A stretch of 27,283 nt of DNA. Source: Spirogloea muscicola. Its lineage: Eukaryota; Streptophyta; Zygnematophyceae; Spirogloeales; Spirogloeaceae. Below, piece by piece: positions 4,494 through 22,259 of this stretch (its first letter is position 1; each line of letters begins with the position of its first letter). Location: the NCBI GenBank assembly GCA_009602725.1, contig WELB01000017.1, positions 494,786-522,068 of the forward strand. The letters run 5' to 3'. The position numbers and the translations under genes are program-made. The notes under the pieces are model-generated. The model saw only the letters and a list, made by a program, of their open reading frames with translations, searched no databases and was not told the DNA's origin.

Positions 4494-8203
<3,710 letters not shown>

Positions 8204-9229: not shown

Positions 9230-9390
9230 ACAAGGAAAGAAATAGCTCTTCCAGATACACAGCAGTGGCTGTGAGAAGCCAGCCCAAAGGATGGACAAGG
9301 TCTGAAAGGAATGGACAAGGTCCAAAGGGCCTCCTTCGAGAAAAAGAAGAAGAAACCCGGCCGCTCGGGCTCGCGCCAGCGCCCAACTGC

Positions 9391-9454
9391 AGAAGAAAGT
9401 GCTCGCCCATTGAGAATAGGGGCTGGAACAACCAGCCCGAAAAAGAATGAACAG
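9391..9454 (+). repeat. Exact long copy 1 of the hairpin repeat
   Basis: About 63 bp, from AGAAGAAAGTGCTCGCCC to AAAAGAATGAACAG, are identical to 9528-9591. The same segment, with one base change in the hairpin loop, occurs inverted at about 10945-11007. Confidence 0.85.
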
Positions 9455-9527
9455 AACTGCAGAACTGCCCCCTGAAGCTAGGGATCCGGTCTACTGTGGC
9501 GGGCACTACCAACAGAAGAAAGATAGA

Positions 9528-9591
9528 AGAAGAAAGTGCTCGCCCATTGAGAATAGGGGCTGGAACAACCAGCCCGAAAAAGAATGAACAG
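9528..9591 (+). repeat. Exact long copy 2 of the hairpin repeat
   Basis: Identical to 9391-9454, 137 bp further on. This copy continues into AGTACGAGAAGGGGG, which also follows the copies at about 10940 (inverted) and about 16350. Confidence 0.85.
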
Positions 9592-10013
9592 AGTACGAGA
9601 AGGGGGATAGCTCTCCCAATCAATGTAAGGCTGTGGCCGTGAGAGACCAGCCCAAAGGAATGCACAAGAAATTGCTCGCCCATGAATGTACAAGGTCTGG
9701 AGGGCCGGAACGCGCAAAGAAGAAGTGGCTTGCCCAAGAAGAAAAGACGCTTCCAGGAGAGGGCGGTGGCTGGGAGAGGCCAGATTCAACAAGTCCGAAG
9801 GGACCACGGAAAGGAAAAGCTCGCCCATAGAAGAGAGGGACTGGCAGAAGCCAGCCAAAAAAGAATGGACAAAATCCAAAGAGCTACAGTAGAATCACTC
9901 AGTAACCTCTGCTAAGCAGCCGCAGGTCGGAGACCACGGAAAGCGCTAAAGCACACACGGAAACAAGTAGCTACTGAAAGAACTAAGTAACCACTAGCAA
10001 ACCTCAGGTCGGA

Positions 10014-10259
10014 GAAGTGGCTCTCCCTATGAGAAGTGGCTCTCCCTTTGAAACAAAGTTTCAAAAGGGGCTAAATGACGGCGGGGCCTAAAGCCACAAT
10101 GACGGAGGGGCCTGAAGATGCTATGTCAGAAACGGGTGGAGGATGGACCACTCAGTAGCTACGAGTGAGGAGCCTCCAATCCGGCGGACTAGCTGCCGGA
10201 ACTTTATCCCCCTGACGAAAGCCTGAGGAGAAACTAGTCCCAAGAAGTGGCTCTCCGAA
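10014..10259 (+). repeat. Triplicate of AGAAGTGGCTCTCC
   Basis: The 14-nt motif AGAAGTGGCTCTCC occurs at about 10014, 10030 and 10244. The first two copies are adjacent. It is probably another module of the composite repeat in this block. Confidence 0.6.
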
Positions 10260-10454
10260 GAGCAGGATACCATCCTCCATGACTTCTGTAAGTGGGCGCT
10301 CAATAACCTCTAGTCAGCGGTGCAGATCAGAATGACGAGAGCGTGGAAAAGCATCGCCCCAACGGAACCGGGGGGCAGCAGCCAAGACGCGACTTCCTCT
10401 CCTTGGAGCCTGCCAGAGTAGGTTAGGACACTGTATGTCACCGACTGAGAGAGA

Positions 10455-11040
10455 CTGTGTCCAGTAGAGGGCGATGGCTGTGATTGGCCAGCACAGCGGG
10501 AAGAATAAACAAAGTTCGAAGGGGGGCGGGGCAGTAAAGAGAGAAGGAAGTGCGGCCAGATTAACTGGTGGCTGGGAGAGGCCAGCCCAATGGAATGGAC
10601 AAGGAAAGAGGAAGGGCTCGCCCATTGAGGATAGAGGCTGGACAAGCCAGCCCAAAAGAAGCAGCAAAGCTTTTGGAGCAACAGCGAATCAACTGGCCAC
10701 TGGTTGCTCATAATCCCCCTGTTGAGCAGTGTAGTCCTTTTTCGGCACTTCTTTCTTTGGCTTTGGACATTGTCCATTCTTTTTGGGTTGGCTTTGCCAG
10801 CCCCTCTTCTCTGTGGGCGAGCTCTTCTTCTTCCCTAGCCCAGCATCTCTGATCTGCGGCTGCTTAGCAGGGGTTACTGAGTGTCTCGTAGCAGCTTTGT
10901 TTCTGTTACTTAGCGCTTCCCCTGGCCCCCTTCTCGTACTCTGTTCATTCTTTTTCGGGCTGGTTATTCCAGCCCCTATTCTCAATGGGCGAGCACTTTC
11001 TTCTTCTTCTTCTGCTGCTGAGCAGCCCCGCAGGTCAGAG
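10455..11040. repeat. Cluster of dispersed hairpin repeat, right block with orientation switch
   Basis: Copies near 10467, 10568 and 10617 are in plus orientation. Near 10720 the orientation flips: about 10765-10830 and 10940-11007 are reverse complements of the same unit (GGGCTGGTTATTCCAGCCCC followed by CAATGGGCGAGC). The inverted part also holds the reverse complement of a block around 15830-15880. Confidence 0.75.
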
Positions 11041-13638: not shown

Positions 13639-14905
13639 TCAGGCCTCGGGCTTGTAGAAGGTTACGCACTGGAGCACATTGCGGGCGTCATTCCAGTCGC
13701 TGCTGGCGAATTGGAACTGCACACCGAGCTCCCGGTAAGCAATGAGGACTGGCCCCGACGACCGCCCGCCCGCCTTGGTCTCCGGCTCGCCCAAGAGCCG
13801 CACGACATCTCCGCTTGTCATGTCCAGCCTGAGAGCAAGCAAGCGAACTTCATACAAAGTTGACAACCTTTGGCAAGTCCCACACATGTGACCCTGAGCG
13901 TGAGCATCTTGAGCGGAAAGTGCATCATGCATCCCAAGCTCCGGTGACCGAGAGCTGCTCAGGTCTAGAATCTAGCCGATGACTTTGCAACATTCCAAGT
14001 CGAGTACATAGTTGGTAGTGTGTTGCAGCTTTTGATCATCTGTTTAACAGGCTGTTTGTGAGGACAATGCATAACGAGCCCCATCATGGAGACTTAAATA
14101 CTGCAAGCGTGTCACTCAGTGAGCATATCCCATACTTGCCCATGCGAGAGCAAGTGTGCCAGATGGACTGCTGCAGCCGGAGCGAGCGAGGAATGCGCCT
14201 GACATGCAAGTGCCTGCGGCGGTGCTTGCACTAGGCCGCCTGGCGGCGCAGCTCTGGACTCTGCTCTTTGACCCAACAAAGCTTAATCTCAACCTGCGCT
14301 TCTCCAGTCAGCTGCTTTCCAGGACCGCGGGGCTGGAGCGCAGCTCGTCTCGCCGGCACCACTGGCGACTAACTCTGACTCGTGGTCGCTGAGCGGGTCA
14401 GCTTGGCAACAGGTGATGTACAGCTGTCAATCTGCTTGCCCTTGTACTTGGCCACTCAGGCCCCCCATCACCCAATTCACACTCCATCACACCGGCGGGG
14501 CGGGGGTTTACCAAGGGTTCACGGTTTAGGGTTTAGGATTCAGGGTGTAAGGGGTTAGGGTCAGCATATAAGGGGTTTAGGTTAGGGGTCAGAGTGTAGG
14601 GTTTGGGTTTAGCTCAGCTCGGGCGCGGCCGCTGACCTGAGGCCGCGCGGCAGCGGGAGCGGGCAACGCCCGAAGCCCTGCGCGGAGTTGTAGGCGTGCA
14701 CGGCGGCCAGCGAGCCGCCCTCGAAGCAGAGCGAGAGGCCGGCTTCGCGGAAGCTGCGGTATCTGCAGGCTGGGCGGCCGGCGGCTGCCGGGTAATCTTT
14801 GACCTCCGGCGGACCCTCCGGGCCGTGGTCGGCCAGCCAGGCGGCGAGCGCGGCATCGTCCTCGGGAGCGCCCAGGAGGTCGACCAGGGCGCCGATATCC
14901 GACAT
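13639..14905 (-). CDS. Conserved-looking protein of unknown function, about 152 aa
   Basis: Two exons, 14905-14637 and 13828-13639, joined by a GT-AG intron in phase 2. The join restores a continuous reading LPLPRGLRLDMTSGDVVRLL. The N-terminal half (MSDIGALVDLLGAPEDDAAL) is acidic and helical in character. Next comes YRSFREAGLSLCFEGG and VHAYNSAQGFG, then LPRGLRLDMTSGDVVRLLGE, PETKAGG, VLIAYRELGVQFQFAS and SDWNDARNVLQCVTFYKPEA at the C-terminus. The pattern of alternating hydrophobic strands with a central 'LPxGL...LGEP' turn looks like a small compact beta-rich domain. I do not recognise a named family and assign no function. There is no signal peptide or membrane segment. The 808-bp intron carries a telomere-like tract and a copy of the 15.3-kb repeat. 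Confidence 0.7.
14384..14457 (+). repeat. Diverged copy of part of the 15.3-kb foldback element
   Basis: The sequence with GTGGTCGCTGAGCGGGTCA ... CAATCTGCTTGCCCTTGTACTTGGCCA matches 15260-15342 (GTGGTCACTGAGCGGGTCA ... TGTGCTTGCCATTGTACTTGGCCA) with scattered changes. It covers the inner end of the left arm and the start of the spacer. Confidence 0.7.
14505..14612 (+). repeat. Interstitial telomere-like tract (TTTAGGG variants)
   Basis: Over about 108 bp the sequence repeats degenerate units such as GGTTTAGGGTTTAGG, GGGGTTAGGG, GGGGTTTAGG and GTAGGGTTTGGGTTTA. The consensus is the plant/green-algal telomere unit TTTAGGG. It lies in the intron of the 13639-14905 gene, 25 bp past the donor site when read on the minus strand. 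Confidence 0.8.
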
Positions 14906-15063: not shown

Positions 15064-15710
15064 TGCAGATGTGTTTCCGGCTGAGATGGGATTGCCAGCT
15101 GCTTATCGGTCGTTCTTGCGACGACGAGTTTCGGCCTGTTTGCAGCGTGCTCAGGCTAATGCCTTGCACCAAAAAGCTGGGCGAGCTCTGATTGGTGGCA
15201 GAAGGAGCTTCGTATCTGACATCTAGTATTCAGGCATCAATTAGGACCTTAATATTTTGACCCGTGGTCACTGAGCGGGTCAATCTGCTGTAGGTCATGT
15301 AGGTCTTCAGATGTGCTTGCCATTGTACTTGGCCATTTGGTTTTCGTTTAGTTTTCTAAGCTTCTCAATATGAGGAGAAATGAAAGGATCTTCCAGTAGA
15401 GAATGGAGTTCTGTGTATTGAAACAAACCAGGGCCAAATGGGCAAGTACCAAGGCAAGCACATCTAAAGACCTGCATAACCTTCAGCAAATTGACCCGCT
15501 CAGTAACCACGGGTCAAAACATAAAGGTCACTAATCGATGCCTAAGTACTAGATGGCAGATATGAAGCCCTTCTGCCACCAACTAGAGGTCGCCCAGCTT
15601 TCTGGTGCAAAGCATTAGCCTGAGCACGCTGCAAACAGGCCGATACTCGTCGCAGCAAGAACGACAGATATGCAGCTGGCAAGCCCATCTCAGCCGGAAA
15701 CACATCTGCA
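15064..15710. mobile_element. Foldback structure with 227-nt inverted arms
   Basis: The left arm (15064-15290) and right arm (15484-15710) are equal in length and highly similar inverted copies around a 193-bp spacer. Outer ends read TGCAGATGTGTTTCCGGCTG and inner ends include GTGGTCACTGAGCGGGTCAA. Both arms keep a related open frame pointing inward (see the next entry). The layout fits a foldback or MITE-like element, or an inverted duplication of a gene fragment. No target-site duplication is obvious, and no transposase is visible. Confidence 0.7.
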
Positions 15711-15796
15711 CGACGTGTGTAGCCTAAATTGGCAATATTCTGGAGAAGTGTGTGGAAACGAGGATCCACCCAGGAAAGAGAGAAGAGCTCGCCCAT
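15542..15796 (-). pseudogene. Coding-like fragment spanning the right foldback arm
   Basis: A frame of 84 codons reads ...LLQNIANLGYTRRADVFPAE then MGLPAAYLSFLLRRVSACLQ, RAQANALHQKAG and RPLVGGRRASYL before a stop. The left arm on the plus strand (about 15064-15225) encodes a parallel version with MGLPAAYRSFLRRRVSACLQ and GRALIGGRRSF, also ending in a stop. Two diverged copies with the same frame suggest an origin in a protein-coding sequence, perhaps a transposon gene. I recognise no family. Confidence 0.35.
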
Positions 15797-16480
15797 AGAG
15801 AAGAGAGGCTAGCAAAGCCAACCCAAAAAGAATGGACAATGTCCAAGCCAAAGAAAGAAGTGCCGAAAAAGGACTTCACTACAAAGCACGAGACGGTGCA
15901 GAGGGAATTTCAGATGGATGCTCAGTATGCACGTGTGAGCAACAGCAGATCAGAGTAACTCGAAGCAGGAAAAGCGGCACTCTGCCGAGACCCGGAAGCA
16001 GCAGCCATAGCACGGCCAGCGCGCGCGTGGACCGCATGAGCCAAAGAAGAAAGGAAGCGCCAGATTGACTGGTGGCTAGGAAAGGCCAGCCCCAAGGAAT
16101 GGACAAGGAGCGCTGTAGCGAGACCGCCAGCCTCATCCGAAAGACCTGCGCGAGGGAGCCGGCCGCATTGAAGCCTGGCGAACCCGGCCGCCGCTCGATG
16201 GCCTCCAGGGCAAGCCGCTGGAGGAGATCCAACCAGCCACTGCCGAAGGCCCCGTGTACGTCAAGAGCCAGTGCCGCGAAGGCATCGCCTTATAAGGGCT
16301 CGACAGTTGAGGATAGGGCCTGGAAAAGCCAGCCCAAAAAAAGAATGTACAAAGTACGAGAAGGGGGCCAGGAGAAACGCTAAGAAAAACAGCACAAAGA
16401 GAAACAAAGCAGCTACGAAGCACTCAGTAACCAGGAGCTGGCGGAAAGCCGCTACGAAGCACTCAGGAGCTGGCAAAAAG
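15752..16480. repeat. Hairpin repeat family, second cluster
   Basis: Plus-orientation copies occur near 15787-15840 (GCTCGCCCATAGAG, then GCTAGCAAAGCCAACCC, AAAAAGAATGGACAATGTCC), 16066-16110 (GGTGGCTAGGAAAGGCCAGC, GGAATGGACAAGGAGC) and 16300-16365 (GAGGATAGGGCCTGG, CCAGCCC, AAAAAGAATGTACAAAGTAC). The last continues through GAGAAGGGGGCCAGG to AGCTACGAAGCACTCAGTAA, as the copy inverted at 10860-10945 does. The first copy abuts the foldback element. Confidence 0.7.
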
Positions 16481-16482
16481 AC

Positions 16483-17416
16483 AGGCCAGCTCTCGAGCTT
16501 GTTGTGAGCACACCCTTGGACCGCCTTAATGTAGAGTACCTGAACCCTACCCCCTGAGCCCTTAACGATTGTCTACACTGATGGCAAGGGAAAAAAGAAC
16601 GGAGACGATACCATTTGCTGAGGAAAGAGTGGCCGTGACCTGACGAGAGACAAATGTACCCTTTGCAGTAACAACCTCAGAGGTCTTTTCTAACCTGAAC
16701 TGCAAACTCGAGATCTCTTTGTGCTGCCCAGCCAGAGCTGTCCTTGTCACGTTCTTATACGGGCAACTTTCACTCAGATACGAGCCAAGCTTTCTCAAAG
16801 TGTTCTTTGGAAGAGCGAAGAAAGACGACACCCGGAGAGGGCGGTCGCTGTGAGAGGCCAGCGCAGAGAAAAGAAGAGCATATGACTGTACTTGCCAGAT
16901 CACCGCTGCCAGCATATACGACTTGGTATAGTATTTACGTATGTGTTCTATATATCTGATTAGCAATTTCACATCTGAGTGCAGCCGTTACCGTTATGTC
17001 CTAACGGAACTGGCAAAGAGCACCTCGGGTGCCCTTCTAACAAGCATCCCAAGCACGGCTGTTGGTGGCGGTAGCACCAATCTGCGCAAGCGACTTCCAT
17101 GGAAGCTAATAACTATTTGCGACATGACTTTGTCATCCATACCTGTGTCATTATCATAAACACAACAGCATACCAAAAGCCCATCCTGCTCGTCACCACC
17201 ATCCCGACAGAAGAAAGGCAGTTGTATAGAGGGTACTCTGCTTGCGTAGCCTAGGATTTGTTAAAAGCTCTTGCGCTGGCTCAGAAAGCAGATGCTCTGA
17301 AACAGACCCATGGGCGACAAGACCAGGTGCAAAGAATGCAGACCTAAAGACTTGCGGACCACCCTAAAGTGCAGTCACAGCGCATCAGTTTGCTAATAAG
17401 TAATGACAAAGACGAT
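16483..17416. other. Intergenic region downstream of the ABC1K gene
   Basis: Apart from the isolated repeat copy, I see no gene. Open frames of 60-136 codons exist on both strands but have no recognisable motifs and no splice-consistent partners. The part close to 17416 should be the ABC1K 3' UTR. Confidence 0.45.
16830..16882 (+). repeat. Isolated copy of the hairpin repeat
   Basis: GGAGAGGGCGGTCGCTGTGA followed by GAGGCCAGCGCAGAG resembles the copies near 9755 and 10460. It is shorter and more diverged than the clustered ones. Confidence 0.5.
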
Positions 17417-20400
17417 CTACACCTTCTTTGACCACTGATGAAGCGCTTTTGAAAGGTAAAGAACCGCAGCCTCTAATGCGTTGCCCTTGTATGACCTTAC
17501 GGAGTACTTGCCTATGTCTATGCCCGTCTTTCTGGCTTCAGGACGACCTATCATATCAGCCAAAAGTGGGAGCCAGAGTTCTGGTGCAGAGCCCACCGCA
17601 GTCCCCGCGGCCTGCAGGCCGAGTATCAGGCGCTTGACAAGCCTCTCTTGCTGCAAACGTGGTAGCAACAACATATAATCGTGAGCTCGGCCCAGCTTCT
17701 CTGCTGTGTCAATGGTCTTATAGCTTGTCATTCGCAGATTATGCAAAGATGCCATCAAGTCAAGCAGGGGTGATGTAGTACTGCATGCCTTCCTCAAGCA
17801 GCAGCAGTTGCTACTTGTTGAAGGGGCCGCGCATATGCACCTCTGACAGGGAGCCTGAAGGCTGCGCAGCATGTTCAGATCCCTCTGCACTTATTTGGCC
17901 TGCAGGTGCCTCCTGCTGCGCTTCTTGCTGATCCTGATTCAGCTCACTGGAAGGTGAATGCTCCAGTAAGCCAGACGAGTATAAGCTCTCCTGCAGACCC
18001 TGCAAGCTGCTCTGCAGCCCAACCTGCCACTGTCTCGCCTCTATTTTCCGCAACCACTCGCCCTGCCACGACTCTTTCAGAACGCTGTCCAGAGCACCGA
18101 CGACGTCTCTCACCAACACCGTACGGACGGGCCTCCCAGCCTCAGAGAACACGTAGTCCAGCATGTCAGACGTTGCTGAGGCTACTGCCCGCCTGTCAAA
18201 GGAGCCTCTGATGCCCTCCTCATCTGGGGACGTCCTTCTGAAGGTGCCGCCAGGGACTTGCTGTGATAGAGGGCTTGCAGTTCCAGCAACTGCTGTCACC
18301 TGAACCAAAGGCAGCTAGGCCATCTTACAGATCGCTCCTCCAATGCAATTGATGAGAGAGTGGTTGCTTCATTGAGCTGTTTCTGTGAGTATAATACATG
18401 CCCACGTACTCAAACACATGTCAGCAGGCTGCAGCACAACAAAGAATATGCAAGTTATTGTAGTCACCAGGCGCTCCAAACGGCCCCATCTGATGGAGCC
18501 ATTGGGGCGGAAGAGCAGCTCCAGAAGAATGCTGCGCATCTCCGGGTCAGGGTCCGAGAGCAGACGGCCAACTATGAAAGGGTAGGCACTGGCAACTACC
18601 TGCAACAGCAAGCTGATGGCATTGTCGAGACAAGAACGAATCTGTGACTTGCAGTGCTTCAGGCATTCGCAAGTACAGAGTGGGACATTCTTTCATCAGG
18701 ACTACAAGAACTAAGATAGAAAGCCTGGTGCCTTGTGCTCTGAGGTACAGCAAACTGGCGCCACCAAGGAGTCAATAGAAGAGCACCAGCAGTGAACCTT
18801 GAATTCTGGGTCCAGCGTTGTGGCAGTCCCTTCCAAAGAGCCCAGCGCCCGAATGACCATGGCGAATTCAGCAGGGAGCCTGAAGTTGAACTGCTGCATC
18901 ACCGTTGACAGCTGTGTGATGATGCCCTGAAGCAGCACGCCAGATGCTAAAGAGAGGGTCAGGAGAACCTATCCACGTATTTTGTTGAGCATGTAGGAGC
19001 CACTAAGCAACCTCAATATCAAATTTATTGCAAACCCGAGTTCTGATCAACAAAGAGAACTGAAGCTTATGCACTACACATGCAAAGAGCCGGTGAAGGA
19101 GGATGTCGTGTAGATTCCACACCAAAGTTGCCCACAACTGTGCCGCATGCAGATGCAGCTGATGGCCATCACAGCTGCAGGATGAGACCGGCCCTCAAAC
19201 CGTGATCTATTCTGACCTGGAAATCCATGTTGGAGCGGCTCCCCTCGACTCCAAAAGACTCACGCAACGCTCTCGCTACAGGCACCAAGTCCGACCCAAG
19301 AGGGAGGAAGCCCAGCACCTCGAAGTCTCTAGCAAGCCCAAGTGCGTCGCGATTTACGAAATGAACCAACTGGAAAGAAACAACACGGCACAAGCACTAG
19401 TAGTATCAGCCTATAGAGCAGCATAGACCAATGAGCAGAGACGATGGGCTAGGCTACTGTCAGCGAGAAAAGAATCAAGGTCGACTGACAGCCTGAGTCT
19501 ATGCCTAGTGAGCTTCGCAGTGGAAGGTTGCTCCGAACCGTTCGTATTAGCCCGATACGGTACTCTCGGCGCATTTCGCTCATCATCCCAAAGTCGAAGT
19601 AGGCCAACTGTCCCATGTGCGTCACAACCAAGTTCCCAGGATGTGGGTCCGCATGGAAAAAGCCCTCCTCAAGCAGCTGCTTCAGAGAGCACAGGACGCC
19701 CTGCAAGTCATGCAGGCAAGATGAGACCTTGACATACTATCATACCGGAGTACACGATCAGCAACCAAGGCATTATATACTTGTCCAGGCTCAGCACAGA
19801 GAGTAACAAGTGAAGCTGAACACGCATTTGGTCCACGAGCTGCTGCGTATTCAGATGCGCTTGAGCCAGAGCGGCGTGGTCTGTCAGCTTGATTCCATCC
19901 ACCCACTCCATTGTCAGGACCCCCCTGCTTGTCAAGTCCCAGTAAATGCTGGGCACCTTCACGCCTCTGTCATTGCCCTTTGCATCAGATTCTCCTGCTC
20001 ATGTGCATCCGCTAACACATGTAAACGCTGGTCAATCACAATCTGCAGCTTCTGATTGTGGCTCGTTCTGCTGAGGTCAAGGATGGGTGGGTGTGGATTG
20101 CAACATTGTGGTAGCCAAGACATCGCCTCTTCAGAGTAAGACCACATGACTAGCTTGTCAAAGGCTGGTGAAGAACCAAATAAGTGCTTCAAAGCTTGCA
20201 AATTTCATTACCTGCAGCATACAACCTCGCAAAGCGCTCTGCGTTGTTGGCCTCCTTTACGTAATCCACCTCCTCAAACATCCTGCCGACCATCTCGTCC
20301 ACTATAGCCACCACATCGCTCCTCCACTTGAGATACTTCTGAAGCCAGGGTTTCTGTAACCAGGAGCCCAACGTGCGGAGAAGGTGTGCGTCCAAGGCCA

Positions 20401-22259
20401 GCCGTGTGGCCATGCCGGGTCGCTGCACTTTCACAGCCACAACTTCGCCACTGGGGAGGTGGGCTGCAATAAGGAAGGTCATGCCATTGAGCTGGTTTCC
20501 AACATTCTCAATCTTAGATATGAATCAGAGACCTTGCAAATGATGGCTCAAAGTAGTTGCAGGGACTGCCAGAGGAGATGGACCATGGGTCTTGTGCTGA
20601 AAAAGAGTGTAGACCTTTGTAGACCTGACCCAGTGAAGCCGCGGCTACTGGCGTTGGACTAATGTCTTGAAAGAGAGTCTGAACAGGAGCCCCTAGCTGG
20701 TGCTCCAAGTATCTGATTGCCTCGGGAGTGGGAAATGGTGGTATTTGGTCCTGCAAGGCCAGCCGAAAGCACTCTCGCACTGAGCTATCTCCAAGTCATG
20801 CAGTCGTCCTAGGCAGATGCCTGTACTTGTAGCAAATGCAGTCAAGCATTTCAATGAGCTCCATAGTGCACTGGTGAAGGAGCCCCTTGAGTCTTCATCC
20901 AGTGCCAAAAGCTGGCAATCACTTTCTCTAGCAATGTGGCAACAATATGACAAGGTGGAGGACCAGTCACTGTCTCTACCTGCAACTTTGCAAGCTCAAA
21001 GCAGTACTCAGGTGGCAAAAAGTCCGGCCTGGTGCTGAGGGCTTGACCTAACTGCAACAAGCAGCACCAAGCACCAGCACCCGGTGTAGCAAGTTAAGTT
21101 GCTCTTTTGTGTGCCTAAAGAAGAGCATGTTGCATAGAGACTGCTGGTGAATGTCCAAGCTTTCATAAGTAGTGGGAGTGGCGGAATGCTAAGTACTTGC
21201 AATGTGGCCTGATTTTGCCTGCTTTCTTTTAGAGCTGAATAGAAAAGTAGAACCCCTGCAGCCTACAGGCAACGATTTGCGAGCTACCTAGAATCTGGAC
21301 AGCCTGGACATAATTCTCACTGTATGCCAGCTTTTCTGCAAGCCTTACCTTCACATAAAACGGCCCAAGCCTGATAAGAGCGCATCGCAGCTGCATTTCC
21401 CAAGGTCAGCACAGCATTACACAAGAACCACTGCAGGATTGATGTACCTTGACTGCACAGCGCCTGAGATTGCACTCAGTACAGCCACTAAAGCTCAAAC
21501 TTTGAAGAGTAACACGGCAAGTCCAAAGGACTCACATTATCGGCTCGTCGTTTTATGTCCTTGACGGTGTATCGGCCAATCTGTAGCAATGCCGCCTCCC
21601 ACAGAAGCAACACAGCTCTGCGGAGTAAAAGCAGCGGTCTCCACTTATAGTACTCCGCAAAGGCCTCAGGATCATAGTATTGCCACTCTGGAGGCCTGGT
21701 CCTGTTCTCTTCCTCTATGAAATGGACGCCTCTCTTCACCTTTTCATCGTCCTGCTCAAGTGTCATCCTCCTGGCATGCCCAGGAACACGCCTTGCAAAT
21801 TCGGGTGACGCAGCCTCCTCATTGGGTGCAGTTGTGTCACGGATTTGTGGAAGAGCGGGGTCATGGAGGACTGCCTGTGCCTTACACCGCGTGCCCCAAG
21901 GGTGGACAGGCTCTGCACTTGAGCTGCAACGATATAATGATAGGAGGTCAGAACCCGTGGCACAAGCTCGCATGGCATTAGCTGATTGATGAGTCGCTTG
22001 CGATGGCCTGATGAGAGTGTTGAAAGCGGCAACTTTGCCAGCTTTCATCCGCAATTCTGCCCAGAGTCTGATCAAGCAGTGATGAGGTTGCGGTACCGTT
22101 GATAGGCCGTTCCAAGTCCTCGGCAGAGTGTGAAAAGCTTCGGGATAACAATGGGATGTCCTTGTGGTTGAGCAACTTTCGAAAGGAGGGTCTTGTCCTG
22201 CACGAGCAGCACTGCACAGAGGCAGTCACGAGGAGCGTGTTGGCTGTGGCGTCCAGGCA
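17417..22259 (-). CDS. Plastid-type ABC1-like (ABC1K/UbiB family) atypical kinase
   Basis: ABC1K proteins bind ATP and act in prenylquinone metabolism and stress responses, in plants mostly at plastoglobules or envelope. Supported exons: 21923-21536, 21390-21349, 21051-20980, 20750-20615, 20463-20212, 19994-~19837, 19700-19539, 19369-19217, 18926-18798, 18599-18468, 18299-17815 and 17780-17417, about 824 residues plus an N-terminus. The first listed exon has [20 protein letters not shown]. Then come the KxGQ motif ([20 protein letters not shown]), the Ala-rich loop ([12 protein letters not shown]), the lysine strand [10 protein letters not shown], the ExD motif ([15 protein letters not shown]), HADPHPGNL and DFG (YFDFGMM). 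Neighbours with PsaO support a plastid setting. Uncertain points: the first exon (an ATG at 22445 or a transit-like frame near 22259), the end of the exon at 19837, and a 34-nt putative intron near 17800. Confidence 0.9.

Follow-up and report, generated by a model that had tools for sequence, protein, structure and literature searches.

In target-primed reverse transcription, as described for long interspersed nuclear elements (LINEs), a nicked target primes copying from the 3' end of the RNA (PMC10499050). Among LINEs with a restriction-like endonuclease (RLE), which include CRE, R2, R4, NeSL/Utopia and HERO, four of five clades are characterized in one source as mostly target-specific, and HERO as containing many non-specific elements (PMC4640811). 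Here we describe a family of hairpin-bearing repeats in a stretch of 27,283 nt from Spirogloea muscicola (contig WELB01000017.1, positions 494,786 to 522,068 of the forward strand; the whole stretch is hereafter the window). The units are very probably 5'-truncated copies of a multi-subfamily non-LTR (long terminal repeat) retrotransposon with an R2-like protein, a reading that draws on features seen directly: a common 3' end, variable 5' truncation, target-site duplications in subfamily A, an intact reverse-transcriptase open reading frame (ORF), ORF ends upstream of the tails, and dispersal. Most likely the family adds a new member to the R2-like, RLE-type LINEs, and it is plausibly undescribed; among the titles and abstract openings of the open-access papers listed we found no description of this family. 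Like R2 and the other RLE LINEs it has one ORF, a reverse transcriptase, a Cys-rich stretch and an R2-like C-terminal region, and it differs from them in its dispersal and very high abundance, with no single target seen. The 28S rRNA-gene insertion of the R2 clade proper was not encountered among 100 listed junctions, whose flanks are diverse.

Three other groups offer partial parallels. Zepp of Chlorella, an L1-like element with poly(A) that is clustered at particular chromosome regions, has copies nested in copies, and so shares with the present family nested insertion in an alga. Dualen/RandI, known from green algae, is likewise a non-LTR element with an RLE (putative in the present family). 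Dualen is described as encoding both APE and RLE (PMC4640811), whereas a Pfam scan of the ORF of our intact copy, L049, detected no APE domain at E <= 0.1. The stringent-type LINEs, such as zebrafish ZfL2-1 and ZfL2-2, eel UnaL2 and silkworm SART1, resemble our family in a short stem-loop near the 3' end with a constant stem and a variable loop. They carry an endonuclease of another type. In ZfL2 the stem is reported to be recognized generally and the loop specifically (PMC4176376, PMC5135761), which parallels the stem-constant, loop-variable pattern noted in a preliminary description of the window.

That description had proposed a dispersed family in both orientations, and genome-wide counts bear this out. 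In the assembly (153 Mb, 471 contigs), the 15-mer AAAGAATGGACAAGG has 643 + 600 = 1243 exact copies and its reversed control 0/0, so the hairpin unit is not a chance occurrence. Copies are spread across contigs in both orientations; the family is not confined to one cluster, and purely local duplication is thereby ruled out. Of 1060 first-look candidates for a 117-nt query spanning box, hairpin, 3' box and longer tail, the best 40 were scored; all 40 showed 100% full-length identity, with seven weaker pieces adjoining them. The subfamily A 3'-end 21-mer, extended by the 14 bases that precede it (the first being other than G), occurs 1265 times.

We fetched 20 subfamily A copies with their flanks. 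They were picked for a perfect 117-nt match, and therefore only the sequence beyond the match is informative. Past the AAGAAG end, all 20 differ from one another. On the opposite side they share one common sequence that ends at different points, from 126 nt to the fetch limit of 417 nt (three copies were cut by masking). A shared 3' end with variable 5' truncation, as seen here in subfamily A, is typical LINE anatomy; it is read on the strand complementary to the one first described. On the sense strand a unit consists of an ORF end (SDLxLLxRGY-stop), a spacer of about 65-100 nt, the TTGTYCATTCTTTT box, a GGGCTGG-loop-CCAGCCC hairpin, GGGCGAGC and a CTT-rich 3' end, with the hairpin inside a 3' untranslated region (UTR) of about 125 nt. 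The boxes originally reported are real and their orientation was reversed, the "5' box" being the 3' terminus on the sense strand; the "longer shared tail" is equally real and corresponds to the ORF end and 3' UTR. Spread by copying, suggested at the outset, is supported as well. The statement that the unit resembles no transposon class was mistaken, since it is in all likelihood the 3' end of an R2-like non-LTR retrotransposon.

The family is highly abundant, and part of it is very recent. Eighteen stretches of 10 kb, sampled outside the window (136,285 unmasked bases; two stretches all N), contained 39 tails, a few of which resemble chance matches by eye. Extrapolation from the 39 gives about 44,000, and we estimate some 40,000 tails genome-wide. 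Family DNA made up 4.1% of the sampled bases, or 5.4% once protein matches were added, from which we estimate about 4-5% of the genome.

Target-site duplications were found in subfamily A. Among 13 usable copies (11 fetched and two from the window; 9 of the 20 fetched were masked or too long), 12 share 5-10 nt across the insert (range 4-10), with a mean of 7.6 compared to 4.3 for re-paired flanks (0/2000); the shared words include a few bases of the insert at each border. Across the 100 listed junctions, G stands immediately before AAGAAAG in 88 and A one position further out in 68, which fits pairing of a target ...AAG with the CUUCUU end of the RNA, or merely an ambiguous border. Target-primed copying very probably begins at the CTT-rich end, perhaps primed through such pairing, and mostly halts early, leaving most copies as the 3' tail alone.

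The encoded protein is R2-like. The intact copy L049, about 4.1 kb long, matches the RVT_1 reverse transcriptase (Pfam scan, E 8.4e-16), and R2 proteins were the only PDB sequence matches of its protein at E <= 0.1. With the model of a homolog as a Foldseek query, R2 proteins took ranks 1-7. A C-terminal motif alignment contains a nearly invariant D, and a structural alignment with R2 extends to residue 1107; both would favor a C-terminal RLE. The Pfam scan of the L049 ORF has no match to one. Two N-terminal C-x2-C...H-x4-5-C/H stretches are visible by eye, and Pfam zf-C2H2_4 was matched at E 0.097, below Pfam's own cut-off. No long terminal repeats were seen by eye in six 5' regions and 3' ends, no dedicated search having been made. 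Searching with the ORF C-terminus gave 18,401 first-look candidates, of which 150 were scored, 18 of these lying in open frames of 1,142-1,550 amino acids. Two contigs (C20:1130796-1135995 and C338:9309-14508) show the same two C-terminus matches, oppositely oriented and in frames of the same lengths (283 and 1350 amino acids), probably a duplicated or doubly assembled stretch. The best protein matches are to gene models whose names begin with SM000, a prefix that fits Spirogloea muscicola; they cover 9%, 19% and 41% of the query at 100%, 86% and 63%, respectively. With pieces of the ORF inside predicted gene models and some 4-5% of the genome being LINE debris, annotation calls for caution.

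We next compared tails with the ORF ends upstream of them. A scan for an upstream-box-like stretch plus a GGGCTGG-like arm, which replaced an early loose scan (494 matches, 166 with a stem, reversed-core control 368), found 143 places; 133 passed a stricter box test and 116 also had the 3' arm. These 116 tails come from the part of the genome that the scan covered. String rules sorted them into subfamilies A (31, including the 20 selected copies), A2 (8), B (8), C (16), D (7), E (10) and F (3), with 33 others, and the hairpin is kept in tails of all seven named groups. An ORF end like SDLxLLxRGY-stop (at most three changes) lies within 260 nt upstream of 50 of the 116 tails, compared to 315 of 13,362 random stretches, and of 29 of 85 when subfamily A is set aside; some of the long-spaced ORF ends belong to an adjoining copy rather than to the tail counted. 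Because at least one tail in every named group has an ORF end upstream, the hairpin belongs to a LINE superfamily.

Judged from these sequences, tail type tends to go with ORF type; the association is clear in A and C and weak in the remaining groups. SDLRLLSRGY occurs in 21 of 21 ORF ends of subfamily A, mostly 76 nt away, and in 3 of 4 of A2. The R-position of SDLRLL is H in 5 of 7 ORF ends of subfamily C and L or M in 3 of 5 of subfamily B, and subfamily D has SDVRLL in 2 of 3. Of six 5' regions read from long-ORF copies, four (L060-L063) have an A2-like tail upstream of the element and oriented like it, L061 with two copies; in L064 one lies next to the ORF region in the opposite orientation.

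Within the window, the box and arm scan counted ten hairpin-bearing units at 9230-11040, eight on the minus strand and two on the plus strand, in line with the roughly ten first reported. Twelve rows were scanned there; 9681 and 10623 were left out as arm-like matches inside the end of an adjoining tail. A second cluster, absent from the preliminary description, lies at 15772-16886. The units and associated pieces are as follows, "arm" giving the first base of the GGGCTGG arm.

9240..9307, minus strand: LINE 3' tail with hairpin, arm 9285
9391..9455, minus strand: subfamily A tail, 5'-truncated to 65 nt, arm 9438; AACTGCAGAA on both flanks, a target-site duplication
9528..9606, minus strand: subfamily A tail, 79 nt, arm 9575; GATAG on both flanks
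9608..9675, minus strand: LINE 3' tail with hairpin, arm 9653
9812..9931, minus strand: tail with hairpin, arm 9857; 5' of the tail, ORF end SDLRLLSRGY-stop at 9899-9931
10449..10516, minus strand: LINE 3' tail with hairpin, arm 10494
10543..10610, minus strand: subfamily C-like tail with hairpin, arm 10588
10608..10675, minus strand: subfamily A2-like tail with hairpin, arm 10653
10728..10836, plus strand: subfamily B tail, arm 10785; 93.6% identity to 15772-15880
10848..11008, plus strand: subfamily A copy with ORF end SDLRLLSRGY-stop (10848-10880), 3' UTR, hairpin (arm 10957) and CTT-rich 3' end
15772..15954, minus strand: subfamily B copy with ORF end SDLLLLTRAY-stop (15922-15954) and hairpin tail (arm 15824)
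16047..16114, minus strand: subfamily C tail, arm 16092, flanked by ORF C-terminus pieces
16104..16286, minus strand: ORF C-terminal piece, 63% identity over 63 amino acids to residues 1249-1311 of the L049 protein
16290..16367, minus strand: subfamily A2-like tail, arm 16335
16819..16886, minus strand: diverged LINE 3' tail, arm 16864

Two pairs are near-identical, 9391-9455 with 9528-9592 (100%) and, inverted, 9525-9606 with 10926-11007 (99%). Box fragments without a hairpin occur near 9318 and 9693. By eye, GAGAAGTGGCTCTCCC-like pieces at 10016-10050 and 10243-10258 match only the last 17 nt or so of subfamily D tails, and are extreme truncations or microduplications.

As a description, a kept stem with a variable loop holds: each of five core stem pairs is standard in 52-55 of 58 distinct tails. 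These 58 remain from 81 representatives, picked by upstream box and 5' arm, after 23 were dropped by hand as apparently truncated, nested or chance, and this pruning biases the set towards hairpins. Folding energy of the hairpin segment lies below the dinucleotide-shuffle mean in 56 of the 58 (mean z -2.2; 29 below -2). Stem covariation in the same tails was not significant, with 73.1% paired compared to 72.7 in shuffles (164 of 500) and three double-change pairs (22 of 500 shuffles), and RNAalifold predicted no consensus pair on the aligned tails. Shifting the partner by one column gave six double changes, more than the three of the real structure. The non-significant covariation speaks against selection for structure, and the early hint of such selection is not demonstrated by it. 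Conservation along the aligned tails is highest in the box and the arms of the hairpin, which makes box and hairpin a likely recognition element, and we moderately favor the idea that the reverse transcriptase recognizes them.

Older copies have repeatedly received insertions in their hairpin loops. The loop site directly after GGCTGGCAAAG holds 10 junctions against 2226 empty hairpins of the same sequence, whereas another CAAAG of the same tail holds 1 against 1785 empty (Fisher p 0.029). In total 114 junctions follow CAAAG, of which no fewer than six come from a single tandem array; given an estimated 468,000 CAAAG sites, 0.5 of the 114 would be expected at hairpins. Inserts at the eleven loop loci read (L031, L050-L059) measure from 21 nt to more than 400 nt, and the rest of the hairpin follows beyond the insert in nine. 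At GGCTGG plus 2-6 nt there are 68 junctions versus 6-9 expected from base rates, an expectation resting on a guessed total of 1,733-2,500 junctions. These observations could mean that the element targets the loop DNA specifically, for instance where it forms a cruciform, and that insertions into older hairpins build the clusters. We consider this improbable. The A-rich AGCGCTAAG, outside the hairpin, has 22 junctions at perhaps 2,200 sites (2 seen in the sampled stretches), which gives it a rate equal to or above that of the loop, and this control weakens loop-specific targeting. The rest of the hairpin is missing at L050, the L057 locus stops at the contig end, and the within-tail control reaches only p 0.029.

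More broadly, the family's own tails, and A-tracts in them, look like favored landing sites. Flanks lie within family sequence at 16 of the 100 listed junctions versus 5.1% of random stretches; a number of these 16 flanks are nothing more than AAG-rich words, and the same excess could arise through survival of insertions in repeat-rich regions. That clusters grow because tails are favored landing sites is possible, although we lean slightly against it. More tentative still, and on the whole rather unlikely, is a scenario in which R2-like LINE subfamilies have radiated with matched RNA-enzyme pairs, all reading the stem and each using the loop and terminal 25 nt or so as its subfamily key, and in which tails serve as favored landing sites, so that clusters such as this one grow by self-insertion.

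The short units could instead be independent short interspersed nuclear elements (SINEs), non-autonomous retroposons with a borrowed LINE 3' tail. Many units are indeed short, and 66 of the 116 tails show no ORF end within 260 nt. Yet subfamily A copies end at differing points along one 3' UTR and ORF and have no common 5' head, and we regard SINEs as very unlikely; this comparison covers 11 usable subfamily A copies of 126-305 nt, the others being at least 370 nt or masked. Searches of the window for a SINE-type small-RNA head were negative: ARAGORN found no tRNA gene, and a tRNA-headed SINE was rejected; the Rfam gathering search matched no family, and a known structured RNA was likewise rejected. 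Local tandem duplication or a satellite, suggested by near-identical units close together and by a tail-bearing 882-bp array on contig C353, has a negligible chance of explaining copies on many contigs, in both orientations, with differing truncations and target-site duplications, and the genome-wide 15-mer count refutes it for the whole family. The C353 array itself (about 50,200-54,700 and beyond) carries the LINE tail at no fewer than six junctions with exact 882-bp spacing.

Dispersed and recently active, these R2-like retrotransposons have a short 3' tail and fall into several subfamilies, and they offer natural material for testing how such a reverse transcriptase recognizes its tail, in a host that is a probable close relative of land plants. 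R2 is described as under development for RNA-directed DNA insertion (PMC12222951).

The window holds several further features. A near-palindrome of 647 bp at 15064-15710 is 82% self-complementary, and its arms match other loci, L007 and L008 among them; it resembles a foldback element. A further short dispersed repeat (...GTGGTCACTGAGCGGGTCA...) lies at 14376-14454, 15258-15335 and 15439-15516 and is also present in L007 and L008. By eye, degenerate TTTAGGG-like repeats occur inside the contig at 14510-14610. Exon-like frames on the minus strand at 1429-1824, 6926-7324, 17420-18314 and 21491-22225 appear by eye to resemble a subunit of a tRNA methyltransferase, a kinase of the calcium-dependent type and pieces of an ABC1-type kinase.
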